A stretch of 64,000 nucleotides of DNA from Pectobacterium carotovorum. GTDB taxonomy: Bacteria; Pseudomonadota; Gammaproteobacteria; Enterobacterales; Enterobacteriaceae. The position numbers and the translations under genes are program-made. Positions within the stretch are counted from its first letter, which is position 1; every line of letters starts with the position of its first letter. Where the stretch lies: assembly GCF_900129615.1 (NCBI RefSeq), contig NZ_FQWI01000005.1, positions 62,001 through 126,000 of the forward strand, in the 5' to 3' direction. The notes beneath the pieces were generated by a model. The model had not been told where the DNA came from, made no database searches, and worked only from the letters and a program-made list of their open reading frames with translations. Of this stretch, positions 6,058-17,593 are shown one piece after another.

Positions 6058-6255
6058 ATGAAGGGTAATAAAAGATATCAAAATTTAATGGCCATAATCT
6101 TTGTAGTCTGTTTTTTCTTTAATCTACCATTCAGTCAGCCATTATATAAAGATGGAAGTGTCGTGGAGGTATTAGTAGTATTAGCTAGTTTCTTTTACAT
6201 GATGGCTTTCCCATTCTTTTACTTTTTTGAAAATAAATGCAGAGATAAGGTATAA
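6058..6255 (+). CDS. Small two-helix membrane protein
   Basis: 65 residues with hydrophobic segments at about 10-26 and 37-56 (VVCFFFNLPF; VLVVLASFFYMMAFPFFYFF). The ATG has AGAGG seven bases upstream. The only plus-strand gene between the mobC-like gene and the conjugation operon; it converges with the latter, and only 28 bp separate the ends. I do not recognise it. It could be a holin-like or toxin-like peptide, but no evidence decides this. Confidence 0.45.
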   Translation: MKGNKRYQNLMAIIFVVCFFFNLPFSQPLYKDGSVVEVLVVLASFFYMMAFPFFYFFENKCRDKV

Positions 6256-6283
6256 TCTCCGCATTATTAGCATTCATCCGTAT

Positions 6284-6667
6284 TTATGGTAATCTTTTTA
6301 ATATAATTGCGGAAATTATTTTTGCTAATGAAAGAGAAGCTATTACAACTATAATTAAATACCCTATAACACTTTGAAAAAAATATGGGAATAGATTATT
6401 CTGTGTATTTGCCAAAGTATCAATACACAAAGTCAATGCTCCCAATGCAGAAGCAATGGAGAAAATAAACTCTGCAATCTTTTTCAATTTTTCGTAGAAA
6501 ATAGAAAAACCAAAAGATATTAAAATTGGAGGAACTAGCAACCAATATTTAGAAAGGATTTCATTGTTGAGTTCTTTTACAATGACTACCACTATAACAG
6601 CTATAAATCCAATGCCCACTATCCCTAATGCAGCTTTGATACAGTTTGGATGTAATGAGTTATTCAT
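6284..6667 (-). CDS. Four-helix membrane protein, last gene of conjugation operon
   Basis: 127 residues, predicted to be mostly membrane-embedded: hydrophobic segments near 12-29, 41-56, 66-85 and 95-118. The start ATG overlaps the end of the JAB gene by 4 bp (ATGA), so translation is coupled. Because this gene is wired into the operon, it is likely part of the same system, either as membrane effector or membrane-anchored target. No known effector motif is seen. Homology to the other membrane protein of the operon (10187-10657) is not evident. Confidence 0.6.
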   Translation of the reverse strand: MNNSLHPNCIKAALGIVGIGFIAVIVVVIVKELNNEILSKYWLLVPPILISFGFSIFYEKLKKIAEFIFSIASALGALTLCIDTLANTQNNLFPYFFQSVIGYLIIVVIASLSLAKIISAIILKRLP

Positions 6668-7155
6668 TCAAAACCCTTCCTTTCTAAACAATATTTAAAT
6701 TTATGTAATTTTCCCCCATCTGCTGCTACCAAATAACAATTGGAAATATTCGCTTTGTTCGGAATTATTAGCATGATGAAAAAGGGTCTTGTATGTCCTG
6801 ATTTTATAAATAAGTCTTGGATACTGCGGATATCCGTCCCAGAAGGGTTTGCTACGGCTTCGTTATGTGTATGCCAATCACCCAAATAGTGAAATCCCTC
6901 TTTAAATAAGGAAGTAATATCTTCTTTGGCTTTCTTCTCGTCTAACTTGAAATAATTTCTTCTCCGCAAGTCAGAAGGGCCGGGGATAGTAATTTTATTA
7001 ATTTCAACCTCTGAATCATTAAGATTATTTGAAAATAACATACCTCCAGATTCTTTACTGAAACAGTGAGTTTGACGATGAGAAAATAATTCATCTACTA
7101 TGCTTTGGCTGATGCATATTTTAAAATCTAATTCGGTACAATGAAATTTATGCAT
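6664..7155 (-). CDS. JAB/MPN-family metalloprotease (deconjugase-like)
   Basis: About 163 residues. The full JAMM zinc motif is present, numbered from the ATG at 7155: Glu35 (SKESGGMLF), His95-x-His97 (GDWHTHNEA), Ser105 and Asp108 (PSGTD). This fits an active peptidase of the Cap3/BilC type, which trims the C-terminus of a ubiquitin-like partner or removes it from targets. An alternative ATG lies at 7170, but the ATG at 7155 overlaps the stop of the E2-E1 gene in TGATG form and is preferred. The gene lies between the E2-E1 fusion and a membrane protein gene, all overlapping. Substrate identity is inferred from context only. Confidence 0.85.
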   Translation of the reverse strand: MHKFHCTELDFKICISQSIVDELFSHRQTHCFSKESGGMLFSNNLNDSEVEINKITIPGPSDLRRRNYFKLDEKKAKEDITSLFKEGFHYLGDWHTHNEAVANPSGTDIRSIQDLFIKSGHTRPFFIMLIIPNKANISNCYLVAADGGKLHKFKYCLERKGFE

Positions 7156-9023
7156 CACATTTTTTCCCAATTAGAATTTTTAAAAATAAGAGGTATAATA
7201 CAATCACCTTTTTCTGGATTTCCGAATTGTGCTATCCATTTATTATTCCATTTTCCACCCAGCTCTAATAGTTCTGCTTCTCTTCCTAAATAACTATAAG
7301 CAAAAGATTCATTTGAAAAACGAGTCATAATAAGATCTATTACTGTTCTTGCAGTTAGAGCATGTAAATTAGTCAATGGGATAGCTCCGTATGGCTGGAA
7401 CTCTCCGGCACATGCAGCTATTCTTTTGCGAGTATTTTCTTTCCAGTAAGTAGCAGGATATTTTAATGCACCAATATATTTACCTTCTGTAATATGCCAG
7501 CTATTAAAAGCATTAGAATCCACTTGATTGACTATTACATGCCCAGCCATTGCATGAGCTTCAACAAATGCAAAGACAATAGCACCAAGAATGTCTTCCG
7601 ACTGTCTTTTAATTAACTGCTGTTCAGTATTCCAATGTGCAGTGCAGCTTACTATAATGTCAGCTTCTGCAATTTTCTGGTTATTCTTGGAATCTTCTGT
7701 CCAATCTTCATTAAATGCTTCTATATAGGCATTTGGAAACTCTTCCCGTAGTCTTGAGGCAAGAGCTAATGCTTTATTTTTATAAACAGAATCAAATCCT
7801 AATAGATGACGAGAGGAGTTTTCACTCTTCATTAAATCATCATCCCAAAGCATCATTTTTCTAACGCCTGATTGAAGTAATAGTCTTGAGACCGAAGAAC
7901 CTACTGAACCACATCCGACGATAGCTACTTTATGTTCAGAGATTTTCTTGTAAGTTTTGTTATGCTCACGGCCAGTTAACCAAAAATCGTCAGAACGGTC
8001 TACTATGAGATTTTCTGTTTTAGTTTGACTTATTCTATTTTTTAAAATCTTTCCATCGATGTAATTTCTATAACCATCTAATAAAGCTGTATTCCTGAAT
8101 CGACCCCGACTAATACCTCTGGTATCGAAACGATCGGAGGCAAGATCACTAACTCCCTTAGGAATCTGTATTCCTATAATATTCATCCCAGAAGGGGTTG
8201 GGAATGAAATTAGAATTATTGGCTTGACATTGAACATATTAGCACAAGATCTTAAGATCAATTCAATAGTGCTTTCTGAATCTTCCTGTTGCTGATTTAT
8301 TAGTTCAAAAAAATCCCTTGCAGTTTTGGGATACTGACTCGGATACCAGGCTTCATCGAAGAATATCAATGGAATTGAAATTATTTTAGAGAGTTGCTGT
8401 TGCCTTATTCGCTTATCTTTTGAATTACTTTCATCCGATTCTATTAGCAATATTTTTTGGTTTTCCAACCAGTTAATTAATTCTTTTTGTGTGTCAGAAT
8501 ATATTACTCCAAATTTCCGAGTCCGATAACCGAAAACCAACCTTGTGTTTTTATTTGTTAGATCACACAGGCTTATAAGTCGATCTGTTTTATTACATTG
8601 ATAAATCCAATAGTTCTGGAACTCATCAATAAAATCCTCATTTAAATCTCCATTTATTCCTTTTCTTAGCATTAGTATAGCATCGTTTAGTAAGTCGACT
8701 GCATAGGTCATATCATTATGATCGATGATATAACTGTCAGGCCAAACACATAACTTGCCATTTTTTTCTAAGTGCGGGAGTTGGCAAACATCAATTTTAG
8801 GTGAGGAAATAAACACATCTGGAATGTCAAATTGACTAAGAGTTTTGTATCTTAGTTGCAATACAATAGGTTCATTACTAAATTCTAAATCAGTTGGTAA
8901 CTCCCAAGCGCAAGCATATCTATTATCGAATTTTATTAATTCATTCATAGAAAGCTTCCTTGCACCATAAGGTGCAAGGATTGTGCTCAACTGATCTATC
9001 TTTTTTTTAAGACAATCAGGCAT
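7155..9023 (-). CDS. E2-E1 fusion enzyme (Cap2-like, ThiF domain)
   Basis: About 622 residues; numbers below count from the upstream ATG at 9035. Residues about 1-145 look like an E2-type conjugating domain with candidate active Cys96 in HLEKNGKLCVWPDS, the H-x(n)-G-x-L-C pattern of Cap2-like E2s. Residues about 150-340 form a linker region. From about 365 a ThiF/E1 adenylation domain begins: IVGCGSVGS (374-379), then LWDDDLMKSENSSRH. Cys542 in AACAGEFQPYG is a candidate E1 thioester cysteine. Together this predicts activation and transfer of a protein C-terminus. The start at 9023 is chosen because AAGGTGG lies at the right spacing; it overlaps the upstream gene by 8 bp. E2-E1 fusions of this kind are known from CBASS (Cap2), but no CD-NTase is found here. 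Confidence 0.85.
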   Translation of the reverse strand: MPDCLKKKIDQLSTILAPYGARKLSMNELIKFDNRYACAWELPTDLEFSNEPIVLQLRYKTLSQFDIPDVFISSPKIDVCQLPHLEKNGKLCVWPDSYIIDHNDMTYAVDLLNDAILMLRKGINGDLNEDFIDEFQNYWIYQCNKTDRLISLCDLTNKNTRLVFGYRTRKFGVIYSDTQKELINWLENQKILLIESDESNSKDKRIRQQQLSKIISIPLIFFDEAWYPSQYPKTARDFFELINQQQEDSESTIELILRSCANMFNVKPIILISFPTPSGMNIIGIQIPKGVSDLASDRFDTRGISRGRFRNTALLDGYRNYIDGKILKNRISQTKTENLIVDRSDDFWLTGREHNKTYKKISEHKVAIVGCGSVGSSVSRLLLQSGVRKMMLWDDDLMKSENSSRHLLGFDSVYKNKALALASRLREEFPNAYIEAFNEDWTEDSKNNQKIAEADIIVSCTAHWNTEQQLIKRQSEDILGAIVFAFVEAHAMAGHVIVNQVDSNAFNSWHITEGKYIGALKYPATYWKENTRKRIAACAGEFQPYGAIPLTNLHALTARTVIDLIMTRFSNESFAYSYLGREAELLELGGKWNNKWIAQFGNPEKGDCIIPLIFKNSNWEKM

Positions 9024-10170
9024 AACCACCACCACCTTGTCTATTTACAGCGGCACTTGATGATTCAGCCATGCCTAATGCAGATGCTGCAATTTTCTTA
9101 ATACCATTATCTGAAATTTCAATTTCTAACGGAATATTCTCTCCATTCTTTTTATGGTCCGATACACATAAAAATTGACCTTGTACATTATCAACAATAT
9201 TTTCGTATTCTTTTTTTGCTCGATATGATGGGGGATCATTAGCATCATCTGCAATAGGATCTGAACTTGCAATTATGAATGCATTTTGTTTTGCCCGGTT
9301 GAATACTTCCATCGCCAGTTCGGAGGTTTTTGCTTCATCACCTTTACCGCTTGAACTATCATGCGATAAAGATCGCCAAGAGCAATGATGTGGGGTTTGT
9401 AGTATATCGTAATCAAGCCACGACATATTGTAATTTTTAAACAGGCGGTTACGGACACCTTCCCAACAAACAACTTCCGCATCACCACCACTTAAAAAGA
9501 ATGCTGTTTTATTATCGCCTTTTAACTCAAAATTGATAATTACACTTGAATGATTCTTACCTAACTTATCTTCATCCTCATCCAAATCTTTTTTTGGTGA
9601 TGGTGCAAGCAAATGAGCTTCAAAATTGTATGAATATGCACCATTAATTAGTCGAGTTGTATTATCAAGGTGCAGTACAATATTAGGGATATCATCAGTT
9701 TTACCATTTTCATCTTTACCTAAGACTAAAACTTGATTACCGACACCATCTAAATATCGTTTTTCTTTGTAAAGATTAACTCTTCGTTTTACTTCTGAAT
9801 TAAGATCTCTTGCATCTTGGACTAAATTATGATTTTGCGCATGGTGTCGCCTAAATACTATCGGACTGGACCAGATTTCATTAATAAAGATTTTATCTGA
9901 CCTTTCACTCCAGTCTTCGGGTTTGCCTAAATGGAAGTGCTCAGAAATTCCAGAACAATGATCTTTATCGGGATGAGACCAAATAAATAGGTGGATAAAT
10001 AATCTACCTTTCTCATCACGATCCAGCTTTTCTCTTAACTGAGAAAGAACATCAGGGTGTTCCTTCCCTTTTCTTATGTGGCAATCGATTAAAATATTTT
10101 GCCCATCTTCCGTTTGGATGAGGGTCATATCCCCATTACCAACGGGGAAGAAACATATCTTTGCAGACAT
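9016..10170 (-). CDS. Metallo-beta-lactamase-fold protein with Gly-Gly tail
   Basis: 384 residues. A ComEC-like metallo-beta-lactamase fold: FFPVGNGDMTLIQT at 7-20, ILIDCH at 26-31, metal motif His66-x-Asp68-x-Asp70-His71 (WSHPDKDHCSG), FFLSGGDAE in the middle and a later TPHHCSW. The last 20 or so residues are a low-complexity Ser/Ala linker ending in GGGGYA. A flexible tail with a Gly-Gly pair shortly before the C-terminus is what E1 enzymes and JAB proteases recognise, so this protein may itself be the moiety conjugated by the neighbouring E2-E1 enzyme, as the CD-NTase is in CBASS. That is an inference. The glycine codons also supply the ribosome binding site of the next gene, so they may be kept for that reason. 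Operons combining MBL, E2, E1 and JAB genes have been noted in comparative genomics. Confidence 0.85.
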   Translation of the reverse strand: MSAKICFFPVGNGDMTLIQTEDGQNILIDCHIRKGKEHPDVLSQLREKLDRDEKGRLFIHLFIWSHPDKDHCSGISEHFHLGKPEDWSERSDKIFINEIWSSPIVFRRHHAQNHNLVQDARDLNSEVKRRVNLYKEKRYLDGVGNQVLVLGKDENGKTDDIPNIVLHLDNTTRLINGAYSYNFEAHLLAPSPKKDLDEDEDKLGKNHSSVIINFELKGDNKTAFFLSGGDAEVVCWEGVRNRLFKNYNMSWLDYDILQTPHHCSWRSLSHDSSSGKGDEAKTSELAMEVFNRAKQNAFIIASSDPIADDANDPPSYRAKKEYENIVDNVQGQFLCVSDHKKNGENIPLEIEISDNGIKKIAASALGMAESSSAAVNRQGGGGYA

Positions 10171-10186
10171 ATTATATCCTTATTAA

Positions 10187-10657
10187 TTATTTCTGATCGG
10201 TATTATCTCCCGATCTTGCTGTGCGAGATTTCTCAATCCCAAAAATAGCCATACCTACATCCTCGATTTTGCCAACGAATTTATCTACATTCAAGCCAGC
10301 AAAGAAGGCAAATGCCATATATCCATAATCGCCACCACTACCGTTTTGTGATGCATCTAACACTATCAAACCCGCTTTAAGGAACAGGTAGGCCACAACA
10401 CCACAGATACCACTAACGATAGGTCTCAACACATACCAAACATGCCAGCGGTCATCCCAGCAGTTTCTAACACACTTGTTTAGATATACACCACGGAGGC
10501 AGTAAAGAGTCCCACCAAGCACTCCGATCAGTCCACAACGGATCATTAGCTTCTTGCTCATGATCCATTCAGGGAACACATCACCCTTTACTAATCCTGC
10601 ATACACAAGGATAACAAGTAAAAGTAAGGTAAGGAGATAACCGATTATTCTTTTCAT
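10187..10657 (-). CDS. Membrane protein, first gene of conjugation operon
   Basis: 156 residues with hydrophobic segments near 4-21, 36-56, 77-99 and perhaps 112-124, and a polar C-terminal tail (about 130-156) containing SRTARSGDNTDQK. The gene lies 16 bp upstream of the MBL-fold gene on the same strand, which indicates a single transcript starting in the spacer upstream of 10657. No family is recognised. Because membrane genes flank the enzyme genes on both sides, a role as membrane-acting effector or anchor is plausible but unproven. Confidence 0.6.
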   Translation of the reverse strand: MKRIIGYLLTLLLLVILVYAGLVKGDVFPEWIMSKKLMIRCGLIGVLGGTLYCLRGVYLNKCVRNCWDDRWHVWYVLRPIVSGICGVVAYLFLKAGLIVLDASQNGSGGDYGYMAFAFFAGLNVDKFVGKIEDVGMAIFGIEKSRTARSGDNTDQK

Positions 10658-11283: not shown

Positions 11284-12888
11284 ATGAAGATTAAACTATC
11301 AATATATAAAGCAAAAAAAATTAGTGACAGTATTGATCAGGTATTAAATCTGGAAAGAGTGAAATCTTCCATTGAATTTGAGAATGAAAAAGCACGAATG
11401 TATCTATATGCTAAAGAATATGTTGAGCCACAAGTACCTGAATGGGCAACGTTGTTTATAAATGCTAATTTAGATCTAGGTTATGATTTTTTTGGAAAGA
11501 ATAGCAACACTGGTGCGGTTCTTGTTGTGGAGCTTAATGACGAAAGATACCTCATTCCATTTGGAACTGGTCATCATCTAATTAATGATAATTATATAGT
11601 TAAAGGATTTGGTCTTAAAACAACTCTTAACTGCATTGAACATAAAAAAATACGTAGTATTGATAAAGGAAATCATAACGAGACAAATCTCCTTACTCGA
11701 AACCAGAGCAGTAAAGAAGTTGATATTTATAATTTAAAAATAGACTCAGAATTAGATATATTAACAACTTTAACAGGAACCTCTACGGAAGAGATATTAG
11801 GTAATAAAATAACGGGAAGAGATGCTTTTGTCATAACACCAGATGTTGTTTTAAATAGTATCCCAGATTTATTGGAAAAAATCATTGATATATATAGCCT
11901 TCCTCTTCCTGAGGAATTCGAATGGGTAAATAATATACAAGAAGCAGATGAGTCAGAAATTGAAATACTTGATTTATTACTTATGGACTTAATTAAAGCG
12001 AAAGATTTTTCTGACATTTGGCTTGGTGAACCTGAAATTGTTGATTGGGAAAGTCAGATAGGTTATTGCTTTGAGAAGCGGCAACGTAGCATAATTTATG
12101 AAAGCTTATCTATGAACCATGTTTGTGATTTTTTCGAAGAGAAAGAAATAGAAATCACAGTTGATAATTTGAAAGAAAAAAACATACACATATTAGATGC
12201 TGATTATCAATCAATAAAGAAATGGTCAATCTATAGATGTCTTTATGCTGAGATAAAAAATGGCGATCAAAACTATATCCTGAGAGATTCAATTTGGTAC
12301 GTGGCTGACCGGAAATTTCTGTCAACTATAGATGATGAAATAAGTAAAATTTTACCTTATGAAAATGCTGATAAATTTCCTATTTATTCTTTTAAAAGAG
12401 AAGAGGATTATAATAGCAATATATGTGGGCTTGATGCCTCCTTTACCCATATGGATCAAAAATTTATACATCATGGCAGTGGGAAAAGTAAGATTGAGTT
12501 TTGCGATTTAATCCGAGGAAGTAACGATTTCATACACGTAAAATATTATAATGGTTCTCAAAGCATGAGCCATTTGTTCTCTCAGGGATTTATTAGCTCA
12601 GAACTTTTTATAAGTGATTCTGAGTTCAGAGAAAAACTTAATGATAAACTCCCTGTTAATTTAAAACTAAAAGATCACATATTGAGACCAGATGCAAGAA
12701 ATTATAAAATAATTTTTGCAATAGCAACTAATAAAAATATACCTAATGAACTCCCACTGTTTTCAAAGATAAATCTTAAGAATTTTTATAAATCTATTTC
12801 TAACTTTGGTTATGAGGTTAGAATATGTAAAATACCCGTAGATGACTTAATATATAAGAAGAAATCTTATAGGCCAAAAAATAATTAA
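11284..12888 (+). CDS. TIGR04141/DUF6119-type sporadically distributed protein
   Basis: 534 residues. The N-terminal third shows the features I associate with the TIGR04141/DUF6119 family: an opening KLSIYKAKK strand, then VVELNDERYLIPFGTGHHLI followed by VKGFGLKTTLNCIE, which fits the family pattern of an FG-x-G-hydrophobic stretch leading into FGLxxxLN. Members are patchily distributed, mostly in mobile and defence-rich regions; the molecular function is not established to my knowledge. The ATG has GAGAG upstream. The remainder is acidic and helical without known motifs. Strong AT bias marks it as acquired. Family assignment is from memory of the pattern only. Confidence 0.6.
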   Translation: MKIKLSIYKAKKISDSIDQVLNLERVKSSIEFENEKARMYLYAKEYVEPQVPEWATLFINANLDLGYDFFGKNSNTGAVLVVELNDERYLIPFGTGHHLINDNYIVKGFGLKTTLNCIEHKKIRSIDKGNHNETNLLTRNQSSKEVDIYNLKIDSELDILTTLTGTSTEEILGNKITGRDAFVITPDVVLNSIPDLLEKIIDIYSLPLPEEFEWVNNIQEADESEIEILDLLLMDLIKAKDFSDIWLGEPEIVDWESQIGYCFEKRQRSIIYESLSMNHVCDFFEEKEIEITVDNLKEKNIHILDADYQSIKKWSIYRCLYAEIKNGDQNYILRDSIWYVADRKFLSTIDDEISKILPYENADKFPIYSFKREEDYNSNICGLDASFTHMDQKFIHHGSGKSKIEFCDLIRGSNDFIHVKYYNGSQSMSHLFSQGFISSELFISDSEFREKLNDKLPVNLKLKDHILRPDARNYKIIFAIATNKNIPNELPLFSKINLKNFYKSISNFGYEVRICKIPVDDLIYKKKSYRPKNN

Positions 12889-13664: not shown

Positions 13665-14564
13665 ATGAAATCATTCGACCATTACTCGATTGTCTTTGCT
13701 TTAAATCATCTAATAGATGCTGTGGATGCTGCAAACCAAACAAACTTTTTTAAAGACTATTTTATGCCTGTTTTTGTTGTTATTCTCTCAGCTATAACAG
13801 CATATATTATCGCCATTCGAGGCTACCAATATCAGGAAGCATCGAAAACTGAACGCATGAAGGCTGATTTAATTAATACTGTTATTCTGCAAATGCAGAT
13901 CATGCAATCAAATCTAATTGCAGTGAAGAAAAATTATTGTGAGGATTTAACTACACACCCGATACAACGGGCTTTGAATGTTCCAATAATGCCTATAAAA
14001 ATTGAAACAGTGAATCTCAAACCACACGAATTAGCACAGCTATTGTATGTGCGAAAAATAGATTTTGAAAAATATCCGTGGATGAATATATCTTCATTTA
14101 TTGCAACATATGCTAACTTTAATATGTTTGTAGAATTGCTAACAATAAGAAATGAACTTGATGAAAAAGTGAAAGGAAATTTAGCACCGTTGCTTTCCCG
14201 TGCAGATATAAATGGCGAAATAAAAACCAAAGATGTGAGGGATTTGCTGAGCGAAGATTTGCTTATGAAGTATGTTGATTTGACAGAAAAGTTTATAACA
14301 TTAGTCGACGATCTCTTAATCACGATTAATGATTTTTTGAAAAATTTTCCGTCTAAAGCGGCTGAATTGATAAAAAAGAAATATCTCAAAAATTATGTTT
14401 TACTTCAATCTTATATAAACCAGTCAGAAGTATTTAATCAAATCTTGGTGAGATGCAAGGATGTAGATATTGATATTTTGGCGGAAATAATGAAATTTAA
14501 TAAAGAACAGGCAACTAAAATGTATATTGACAATTCTATCGTTATAATCACTCCTAAAGATTAA
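13665..14564 (+). CDS. Membrane-anchored helical protein
   Basis: 299 residues. One clear membrane helix at about residues 32-50 (FMPVFVVILSAITAYIIAI), followed by a long mainly helical cytoplasmic part; the residues after the helix (RGYQYQEASKTERMKADLIN) look like a coiled coil. No signal peptidase site, no catalytic motif recognised. It follows the RHH regulator by 36 bp and probably shares its promoter. Strong AT bias. The architecture (one anchor plus a helical cytosolic domain) would fit an effector or sensor in a defence island, but this is only a possibility. Confidence 0.5.
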   Translation: MKSFDHYSIVFALNHLIDAVDAANQTNFFKDYFMPVFVVILSAITAYIIAIRGYQYQEASKTERMKADLINTVILQMQIMQSNLIAVKKNYCEDLTTHPIQRALNVPIMPIKIETVNLKPHELAQLLYVRKIDFEKYPWMNISSFIATYANFNMFVELLTIRNELDEKVKGNLAPLLSRADINGEIKTKDVRDLLSEDLLMKYVDLTEKFITLVDDLLITINDFLKNFPSKAAELIKKKYLKNYVLLQSYINQSEVFNQILVRCKDVDIDILAEIMKFNKEQATKMYIDNSIVIITPKD

Positions 14565-14809: not shown

Positions 14810-15685
14810 TCACATTCCATAATACTTTGAACTAAAACCAACAGTCAAAGGTGCTCCATCATATGAGCAGCTAACACTGATTTTTAGTTTCTTACGGTGG
14901 TCATAATATGTATGATAATGAGTTTTTTTTCTTGCTAACTCTATTTCTGATAGCCCTATACTCAATGCGCCGAGTGGAATTTCAGAGTCAAATTCTTGGT
15001 TCTGATAATGAGGGGCTGTCTTTTTAAGATCAATTTCAACATAACTTATAAAATTACCCTCTGCCTCAAGTAGCATATGGCAATCTTCATCTTCAATGAT
15101 GATATTCCCTACATCATTGGCTTTACATCCAGTTTCTTTCTCCACTTGAGAAGTTGTCATTCCTATATACTGAAATGGTCGGTGAAATGGTTTAGACATC
15201 ATTGGTAAGTTTTTATAGAATGCTTTATCTAATGCGGTCGATAAATTATGAGGAGTTTTCTCATTTCTCATTATGTTTTTATTGAAAACTATTCCAATAC
15301 TGTTTATTAGTATTCTAAATGATTCTTCGTAATTTTCTTCACATCTAAAGTCACCATAAAGTTTCCCCAATAAAAACCCAGGTGGTTCACACTCTTTAAG
15401 CATTATTGGTAAGACTTTTATTTTCCTTCCACTTATTTGTTGATTCATTGCCACATCAAGTTCATTTACTACCCAAGGAGCATTAATGGAATTGGGGGAG
15501 AGAATAACGGCAAAGTAATCTACATTATCTATGCCCTCTCTAATTTTCATTATTAATGAATCACCAATTTTCATTTCTGCTTCATCAAGCCAATATCGAA
15601 CACCATGATTTTCCAGATCTCTTGCCAATTTTCTGACAAAATCCTTATCGCTGTTATTATGACTTAAGAATATGCTTATGCTCAT
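14810..15685 (-). CDS. TIR-domain protein with unknown C-terminal domain
   Basis: 291 residues. Residues 1-about 135 form a TIR domain: SISIFLSHNNSDKDFVRKLA, then RYWLDEAEMKIGDSL, FAVILSPNSINAPWVVNELDVAM, with Glu75 in the position of the catalytic glutamate of NAD-consuming TIRs. Bacterial TIR proteins often act in phage defence by degrading NAD or making signalling nucleotides. The remaining 150 residues (from about FHRPFQYIGMTTSQVEKETG) are not recognised and may be a sensor. No second gene is clearly linked: upstream is a non-coding stretch and downstream the neighbouring gene converges. The start ATG has GAGGGAAAA upstream. Confidence 0.8.
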   Translation of the reverse strand: MSISIFLSHNNSDKDFVRKLARDLENHGVRYWLDEAEMKIGDSLIMKIREGIDNVDYFAVILSPNSINAPWVVNELDVAMNQQISGRKIKVLPIMLKECEPPGFLLGKLYGDFRCEENYEESFRILINSIGIVFNKNIMRNEKTPHNLSTALDKAFYKNLPMMSKPFHRPFQYIGMTTSQVEKETGCKANDVGNIIIEDEDCHMLLEAEGNFISYVEIDLKKTAPHYQNQEFDSEIPLGALSIGLSEIELARKKTHYHTYYDHRKKLKISVSCSYDGAPLTVGFSSKYYGM

Positions 15686-16146: not shown

Positions 16147-17352
16147 CTAAGCAATAAGACTGAATTCAGAGATATTACTCTTTCCCAACTTATCAACATA
16201 ATCCGCATACCATTGAAGCATTTCCCGCCGACCATCCAGATATAGCGCGTGGTTATAAGTGGCACGGATAGCGTTTTTATCGACATGGGCTAACTGGAGT
16301 TCAATCCATGCACTATTAAAACCCTGCTCATGAAGGATGGTGCTCATCGTATGGCGAAAACCGTGTCCAGTCAGTTTTTTATCGTATCCGACACGTTTGA
16401 TGACCTGATTGATACTCGCTTCGCTCATTGATTTACTGGAATCGTTCCGACCCGGAAAAACCAACTGAAAACCCCCAGTGATGTTTTGTAGTTCCGACAA
16501 CAGATCACAAACCTGAGTGGATAGGGGAACCAGATGGGGACGGCGCATTTTCATACGCTCTTTGGGGATCTGCCAGATCTTCTTGCCAAAATCGATTTCC
16601 TGCCATTCAGCAGATCGTAGCTCGATGGTTCTCAGTCCGGTCAGCATCAGCAGGCGGGTGGCAATTTGAGTAATGCGACTACCGCTATAGCCACTCAGTG
16701 CCTGAATAAAGGGACCAAGTTCATCAGCCAACAGGTGAGGGAAGTGTTTTTGCTTCGGCGCTTTCAATACCCCAGCTAAATCCGTTACCGGATTATATTC
16801 AGCCCGACCGGATACGATGGCGTAGGTGAAAATCTGTCGGCAAGCCTGACGAGTCTTTTTCAGTTTATCCAGTACGCCCCGCTGTTCCATTTTTCTCAGC
16901 ACATCCAGCATATCTTTTGGCTTGATGTCAGTGATTGGCCGTTTACCAAGGTAGGGGAAAATGTCTTTTTTCAGATATTCAAGAATGTCTTCAGCATAGC
17001 CCTTCGACCAGTTAGGGCGCTTATGTTCGTGCCACTCTAATGCGATAAGCTGAAAGCTGTTGTTGACTGCCGCGATTTTTGCCTGTTTCTCAACCTGCTT
17101 TTCTTCGCTCGGATCGCCGCCATTCGCAAGAAGCTTTTTGGCTTCCCCACGTTTTGTTCTTGCATTAGCCAGTGAGATATCGGGATATGTGCCAATAGAA
17201 AGCAGTTTTTCTTTTCCTGCATAACGATACTTTAAACGCCAGTAGCGTGAGCCATTGGTGTTAACCAGCAGATATAATCCAGCACCATCAGTAAGCTTAT
17301 AGGGCTTATCTTTGGGTTTAGCTGTTTCTACTTGGCGAGCAGTTAGCTTCAT
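16147..17352 (-). CDS. P4-type tyrosine integrase
   Basis: 401 residues, normal length for P4/CP4-type integrases. An N-terminal arm-binding domain opens with KLTARQVETAKPKDKPYKLTDG and a DUF4102-type YRWKLKYR-like strand region; the catalytic domain shows LTGLRTIELRSAEW (Arg), HGFRHTMSTIL (His-x-x-Arg), LQLAHVDKN and Tyr in RATYNHALYL. The gene starts about 165 bp from the 3' end of tRNA-Arg and reads away from it, the usual layout for tRNA-targeting islands. It presumably integrated the island extending left of it. There is no obvious excisionase next to it. Confidence 0.92.
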   Translation of the reverse strand: MKLTARQVETAKPKDKPYKLTDGAGLYLLVNTNGSRYWRLKYRYAGKEKLLSIGTYPDISLANARTKRGEAKKLLANGGDPSEEKQVEKQAKIAAVNNSFQLIALEWHEHKRPNWSKGYAEDILEYLKKDIFPYLGKRPITDIKPKDMLDVLRKMEQRGVLDKLKKTRQACRQIFTYAIVSGRAEYNPVTDLAGVLKAPKQKHFPHLLADELGPFIQALSGYSGSRITQIATRLLMLTGLRTIELRSAEWQEIDFGKKIWQIPKERMKMRRPHLVPLSTQVCDLLSELQNITGGFQLVFPGRNDSSKSMSEASINQVIKRVGYDKKLTGHGFRHTMSTILHEQGFNSAWIELQLAHVDKNAIRATYNHALYLDGRREMLQWYADYVDKLGKSNISEFSLIA

Positions 17353-17516: not shown

Positions 17517-17593
17517 TGGTACGCCCTACAGGGCTCGAACCTGTGACCTACGGCTTAGAAGGCCGTTGCTCTATCCAACTGAGCTAAGGGCGC
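17517..17593 (-). tRNA. tRNA-Arg (anticodon UCU)
   Basis: A 77-nt cloverleaf on the minus strand: acceptor GCGCCCT paired with AGGGCGT (one G-U pair), D arm AGCTCAGTTGGATAGAGC, anticodon TCT in CCTTCTAAG, T arm with GGTTCGAGCC, encoded CCA. Its 3' end faces the P4-type integrase, so it is the attachment site of the island on its left. The expected partial 3'-end duplicate at the far end is not inside this window. Confidence 0.95.

Follow-up and report, generated by a model that had tools for sequence, protein, structure and literature searches.

In type II cyclic oligonucleotide-based antiphage signalling systems (CBASS), Cap2 is linked by a thioester to the C-terminal glycine of the cGAS/DncV-like nucleotidyltransferase (CD-NTase), and a terminal glycine or alanine is conserved among the CD-NTases of operons with both Cap2 and Cap3, not among the other architectures examined there (Jenson et al. 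2023, PMC10097602). The cyclase of a Bacillus CBASS is described as being joined to PspA, and its C-terminal alanine as being required (PMC11153139). Row 6a of Iyer et al. (2006, PMC1779556) usually consists of two genes, one for a triple-module E2-E1-JAB protein and one for a metallo-beta-lactamase-fold (MBL) protein, and the text on this row names no membrane gene. We analysed a 64,000-nt stretch of Pectobacterium carotovorum DNA (contig NZ_FQWI01000005.1, positions 62,001 to 126,000; hereafter the window), which encodes such an MBL together with a separate E2-E1 fusion, a separate JAB protease and two small membrane proteins, TM1 and TM2. With a probability of about two in three, this locus appears to be a split-architecture relative of the 6A-MBL system that would operate on the principle of type II CBASS, the MBL taking the place of the CD-NTase. 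We demonstrate in this study the conservation of its catalytic residues, a rule for the C-terminal tail of the MBL that is linked to the conjugation machinery, and a recurring slot for a partner gene.

All five open reading frames (ORFs) are present on the minus strand at 6284-10657 in the order TM1, MBL, E2-E1, JAB, TM2. They are tightly packed, with a 16-nt gap after the first gene followed by overlaps of 20, 16 and 4 nt, which bears out the leftward, overlapping gene set of the original prediction, made from the sequence alone. The MBL (384 aa, 9016..10170), rightly recognised there as an MBL-fold protein, matches the NCBIfam model NF058524 ('anti-phage 6A-MBL system MBL-fold protein') at 372.9 bits, with a cut-off of 220; it has zero Pfam matches up to E 0.1, and a sequence search of the PDB found nothing. 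Its residues H66, D70, H71, D230, H261 and H262 are invariant across 30 aligned sequences, D68 is kept in at least 90% of them, and the metal-site pattern reads HPDKDH / GGD / PHH, which we take to be ComEC/Rec2-like. The C-terminus consists of a Ser/Ala-rich linker and the end NRQGGGGYA; the NF058524 model spans residues 7-356, and this tail (residues 357-384, 9019..9102) lies outside it.

The Cap2-like E2-E1 fusion (626 aa, 7155..9035) scores 78.8 bits for ThiF and 38.5 bits for Prok-E2_B in Pfam and 344.5 bits against the PADLOC E1-E2 model PDLC00836, and the top PDB matches of its alignment profile are Cap2 (7tsq, 7tsx, 7to3). E2 Cys96 (codon 8748..8750), the GCGSVG motif at 374 and the candidate E1 Cys542 (codon 7410..7412) lie where they had been predicted; of 16 aligned E2-E1 proteins, all have Cys96 and 14 have Cys542, which is absent from L021 and L026. 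The Cap3-like JAB protease, encoded by its own gene (168 aa, 6664..7170), matches Pfam Prok-JAB at 40.0 bits and reaches 63.1 bits against the Cap3 model (cut-off 200), and the complete JAMM motif ascribed to it (E40, H100, H102, S110, D113) is conserved in 12 of 12 aligned proteins. Relatives thus retain Cys96, the JAMM motif and the metal-site residues of the MBL, and with two exceptions Cys542. From annotated relatives, the likelier starts are probably ATG 9023 for E2-E1 and ATG 7155 for JAB.

The tail of the MBL was compared across 110 MBL ORFs (>120 bits, >280 aa, with a stop codon) that fall into 60 clusters at 85% identity, comprising 10 with split machinery like that of the window, 49 with fused machinery and 1 with a lone E2; fragments (e.g. 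L042, L045) and divergent MBLs (e.g. L077, L128) were left out. The comparison sets were 483 background ORFs of these loci, each 200 aa or longer, and 78 E2-E1 proteins. An [YF]A ending was found in 10/10 split and 0/49 fused clusters, in 1/483 background ORFs and in 2/78 E2-E1 proteins. [HYFARQ]G occurs among the nine C-terminal residues of 49/49 fused clusters, 49/483 background ORFs and 5/78 E2-E1 proteins. In fused-type tails, further residues often follow [HYFARQ]G (HGAA, HGRK, PRAGVSNQ), which suggests that JAB may trim them. As far as its sequence tells, the MBL carries the same C-terminal signature as Cap2-partnered CD-NTases, and the best candidate for the conjugated partner is the MBL itself, by way of this tail. 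The original prediction held that the system would need another conjugated partner, which is probably wrong, since the MBL tail tracks the conjugation enzymes; a hidden ubiquitin-like partner was rejected as a need, and a covalently attached MBL had been among the proposed checks.

In a tree of the 60 MBLs, computed with the last 30 residues removed, split systems stand in three places (L021 with L026; L029; the clade of the window). The split architecture requires 3 changes on this tree, at least 2 of which are forced by well-supported branches, so that the tail goes with the conjugation machinery rather than with MBL descent. On supported branches, two independent pairs show a difference in architecture and both show one in the tail as well; a third pair is added if all branches are used.

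A third kind of tail accompanies a third kind of machinery. Two contigs of one Bacteroidia bin (L041, L051) carry a 6A-type MBL beside a short E2 of 220-221 residues and TM1, with neither E1 nor JAB seen at these loci, and their MBLs end KKPWCNTDD and KKPWCKTNE. Another MBL adjoins the same short-E2 family (PADLOC E2) in Runella (L128). This E2 also stands beside annotated nucleotidyltransferases in Cytobacillus, Vibrio gigantis, Aliarcobacter and Haliscomenobacter (L129, L131, L158, L159) and, in Chryseobacterium (L130), beside an annotated adenylate/guanylate cyclase that is itself next to a 'Pycsar system effector'; it is present in 10 of 395 genomes of the phylum of Chryseobacterium, the source genome included. 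The [KR]PW tail was first noticed in the first six upstream proteins. Among further distinct upstream ORFs, 10/12 have [KR]P[WY] among their 12 C-terminal residues (16/18 overall, 1/483 in the background), and one of the misses, L160, is a transposase at a locus with an insertion sequence upstream. Pfam or PADLOC supports a CD-NTase at L149, L150, L152, L154, L156 and L157; L151 is a Pycsar cyclase (PADLOC PycC, 448.6 bits), the cyclase match of L153 is under the cut-off, and the upstream proteins of L130 and L155 have zero Pfam matches. Three kinds of enzyme thus carry one kind of tail, as they are paired with one kind of short E2. Pycsar-type cyclases that end in [KR]P[WY] tails and have a short E2 as partner were seen at L130 (by annotation), L151 (by PADLOC) and L153 and L155 (by likeness), and a search of open-access papers yielded none on this pairing.

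TM1 (156 aa, 10187..10657), the first gene of the operon, encodes a membrane protein with hydrophobic segments and is a recurrent partner without a name in the libraries searched, with zero matches in Pfam, NCBIfam and PADLOC (up to E 0.1) and PHROGs (up to E 0.01). Homologues of 41-57% identity occur in Celerinatantimonas, Aeromonas, Shewanella, a Flavobacteriaceae, a Bacteroidia bin and an enterobacterial plasmid. They stand at 6A-MBL loci in Pseudomonadota and Bacteroidota, and the alignment has 24 invariant columns across 11 sequences. TM1 was found in 5 of 179 plasmid records, 4 of them with MBL, E2-E1 and JAB (L079, L081, L082, L083; L082 and L083 carry identical proteins), and in 4 of 4 viral contigs, 3 of them with the system (L075, L076, L078); in 398 genomes, the sole strong match was that of the window itself. 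Homologues apart from their neighbours, which would speak against the unit originally predicted, came to light in two mild cases. On a K. pneumoniae plasmid (L080, 3629-3883 and 4881-5399), TM1 and a WYL gene are kept beside an MBL remnant, with an IS5 element adjoining, and on a viral contig (L077, 1953-3436), TM1 directly precedes a different MBL-like protein and E2-E1 was not seen. Weak matches beyond 6A loci (33.7 and 30.2 bits) were not counted; L085 looks spurious, and at L084 the start of the adjoining gene resembles, by eye and without a search, a HIT protein.

TM1 is found with each of the three machineries, and its distribution on the tree requires 5 changes. More generally, the searched neighbourhood of 57 of the 60 clusters contains a patatin or one or more multi-pass membrane families: TM1 in 10/60, a patatin in 10/60 and the families A, B, C, D and DUF6338 in others, while two clusters have none and one has too little flank. 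Two genes with a patatin-like phospholipase annotation supplied the patatin profile. Profile comparison links A with B (87%) and shows no relation between TM1 and the other slot families (probabilities 0.2-0.6%). A second, smaller MBL-like protein is found in the slot neighbourhood of 13/60 clusters, for example in or beside the slot at L004 (5044-5949), L032 (9815-10690) and L110 (7983-9053). The regulators beside the relatives are WYL proteins or a helix-turn-helix protein with an ImmA/IrrE peptidase, upstream genes that resemble CapW and CapH with CapP as these are defined in PMC13373217.

Of the predicted five-gene unit, TM1 thus holds as a recurrent partner across phyla, and TM2 does not. 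TM2 (127 aa, 6284..6667), an accessory membrane protein with three hydrophobic segments, is shared with the E. coli copy of 98.2% identity and with Citrobacter gillenii (L008). It was found only in L002 and L008 of 71 loci searched, several of which end short of its place, and three other copies have a different gene at its position; TM2 was therefore rejected as a core part. Immediately 3' of TM2 lies a terminator-like hairpin (6236..6265, minus strand), for which the evidence is weak, because 6 such sites were found in the region as compared with 2.8 (standard deviation 1.9) expected from shuffles.

From these features we infer conjugation and arming of the MBL, a link from MBL to effector and an anti-phage function. 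E1 would adenylate Ala384 of the flexible MBL tail and hand it to E1 Cys542 and E2 Cys96; E2 would attach the MBL to a cellular target and thereby arm it, and the JAB protease could take the conjugated MBL off again. Upon infection, the armed MBL may, by its metal site, switch on the membrane effector encoded in the neighbouring slot, which is TM1 at this locus and a patatin phospholipase or a different membrane family at others, and this would stop the cell before phage maturation. The self-contained conjugation and deconjugation module around an MBL that had been put forward is supported by our data, and NCBI names the MBL family after an anti-phage 6A-MBL system.

A wider generalisation, to which we give somewhat less than even odds, is that MBLs are a third core class of immune enzymes, able to trade places with CD-NTases and Pycsar cyclases. 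Each of these would be armed by a portable C-terminal tail with a code set by the type of E1 or E2 ([YF]A, xG, [KR]P[WY]), all would switch on membrane-attacking effectors, and the MBL would produce, set free or break down a signal molecule and not simply cut nucleic acid. If this is true, the conjugation of immune enzymes by their own tails would be a general arming device beyond CBASS, a hydrolase would occupy the seat of a signal-making cyclase, and arming could be read from the last few residues, which would provide a simple sequence test for the enzymes targeted by a bacterial E2. Our search of open-access papers (no preprints) in a partial library brought up no mention of the tail rule or of a membrane partner for an MBL system; the NCBI naming implies a prior source, and both the 6A-MBL system and the tail rule may already be in print elsewhere.

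Several points weigh against the reading of the locus as an MBL-based counterpart of type II CBASS. MBLs are hydrolases, and none is known to us that generates a signal for immunity. The tail motifs were chosen after part of the data had been seen, and under the stricter test of Jenson, which asks for Gly or Ala as the last residue, the counts are 10/10 split, 32/49 fused, 0/1 lone-E2 and 87/483 background. L108, scored as fused, is annotated with separate ThiF and JAB genes and its MBL ends GFGAA, so that the split [YF]A count becomes 10/11 if it is classed by its annotation. L021 and L026, split systems of Bryobacterales, lack the E1 cysteine column though their MBL ends GFA, and the remaining miss of the [KR]P[WY] tail, L147, is a CD-NTase that ends NPRQYSNK. 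With only two independent pairs, a sign test on the tree cannot reach significance. Concerning the slot, the searched neighbourhood extends 4.2 kb down and 2.2 kb up on either strand, so that chance neighbours are possible, and the families other than TM1 were built from the slot itself.

The main rival for the role of the MBL is that it kills directly as a ComEC-like nuclease, that conjugation places or restrains it, and that TM1 serves as membrane anchor or sensor. The MBL domain of ComEC is taken for a nuclease, the metal-site residues are kept here, a near-identical copy from E. coli Yu5 carries a ComEC/Rec2 family annotation, and the profile relatives include the defence MBLs Avs1a, LmuA and RTasMBL. 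The patatins in the slot of 10/60 clusters, however, would be redundant next to a killer nuclease: patatin phospholipases are the effector class of CBASS CapV, and at one locus a patatin beside a nucleotidyltransferase and the short E2 is annotated 'CBASS cGAMP-activated phospholipase'. The same short E2, moreover, otherwise pairs with signal-making enzymes. A directly killing MBL is, in our judgement, rather unlikely, and an MBL that is armed by its tail and acts through a partner in the slot remains the preferred reading.

Much less probable is that a ubiquitin-like protein encoded elsewhere is the substrate of E2-E1 and JAB, with the MBL a mere neighbour or target. Bil and Bub, which comprise E1, E2 and JAB functions, do conjugate a ubiquitin-like protein. 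The 10 neighbouring ORFs of the window, however, gave no Pfam or NCBIfam match to a ubiquitin-like family, in line with the absence of such a gene noted at the outset, and a highly diverged one could be missed; all of the TM1-centred loci with E2-E1 also have the MBL (7/7; searches were centred on the MBL, TM1 and the short E2, and none on E2-E1), and the tail of the MBL varies with the type of E1. Least credible of all, and hardly to be expected, is a sulphur-transfer or otherwise metabolic ThiF/JAB module without a role in defence. In its favour, the E1 domain matches the NCBIfam ThiF/MoeB models, with scores below their cut-offs. Against it stand an E2 domain with an invariant Cys96 and a profile whose best PDB matches are Cap2. 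The surrounding stretch, with a TIR gene and an integrase next to tRNA-Arg, and the CapW-like or CapH/CapP-like genes in the relatives likewise argue against a metabolic module.

The locus is embedded in a low-GC stretch whose right end is marked by this integrase gene (Pfam Phage_integrase, 16147-17352, minus strand) beside tRNA-Arg(tct) (17517-17593, minus strand), which is likely the attachment end of an island. Within the same stretch, a possible defence gene encodes a TIR-domain protein (14810-15685, minus strand; Pfam TIR_2, 100.4 bits). A TIGR04141 / DUF6119 'sporadically distributed protein' (11284-12888, plus strand, 515 bits) is encoded divergently from the operon, and the ORF at 13665-14564 (plus strand) matches PHROG 21267, to which no function is assigned, at 160 bits. 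Among 5426 complete E. coli genomes, 17 contain locus-like DNA, one at 98.2% identity, eleven at 88-90% and five at 72-74%; in E. coli 266917_2 (L003, 1-4869), a CTX-M-15 / ISEcp1 / Tn3 region lies no more than a few kb from the locus.

Among known systems, Bil and Bub differ from the window in their gene for a ubiquitin-like protein, which none of the scanned neighbours resembles. Type II CBASS shares with it the separate E2-E1 and JAB genes with retained catalytic residues, a core enzyme with a C-terminal Ala or Gly tail (here an MBL, ending in Ala) and an exchangeable partner gene, which is a patatin in some relatives of the window, but has a CD-NTase where the window has an MBL. SMODS (PF18144) CD-NTases gave 0 matches in the whole genome at E 0.001 and none among the 10 ORFs scanned, as the original prediction had noted for the vicinity, and a filing as CBASS was therefore rejected. 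Lone-E2 or type II-short CBASS comes close through L041, L051 and L128, in which an MBL takes the CD-NTase position beside the same short-E2 family, and differs in that the window has a full E2-E1 and a JAB. With 6A-MBL, the window shares the curated MBL family and the E2, E1 and JAB domains alongside, but the canonical system fuses E2-E1-JAB, which are separate genes here, and the MBLs of fused systems end xG, whereas the MBL of the window ends [YF]A and is accompanied by a conserved TM1. The fused model NF058523 (Cap2_3; cut-off 320) is passed by the fused proteins of L105 (540.1 bits) and L006 (661.9 bits) and failed by the E2-E1 (71.5 bits) and JAB (40.4 bits) of the window, so that a canonical 6A-MBL filing was rejected. 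As its MBL passes the family model and its conjugation enzymes do not pass the fused one, the locus represents a variant arrangement of a known enzyme family.

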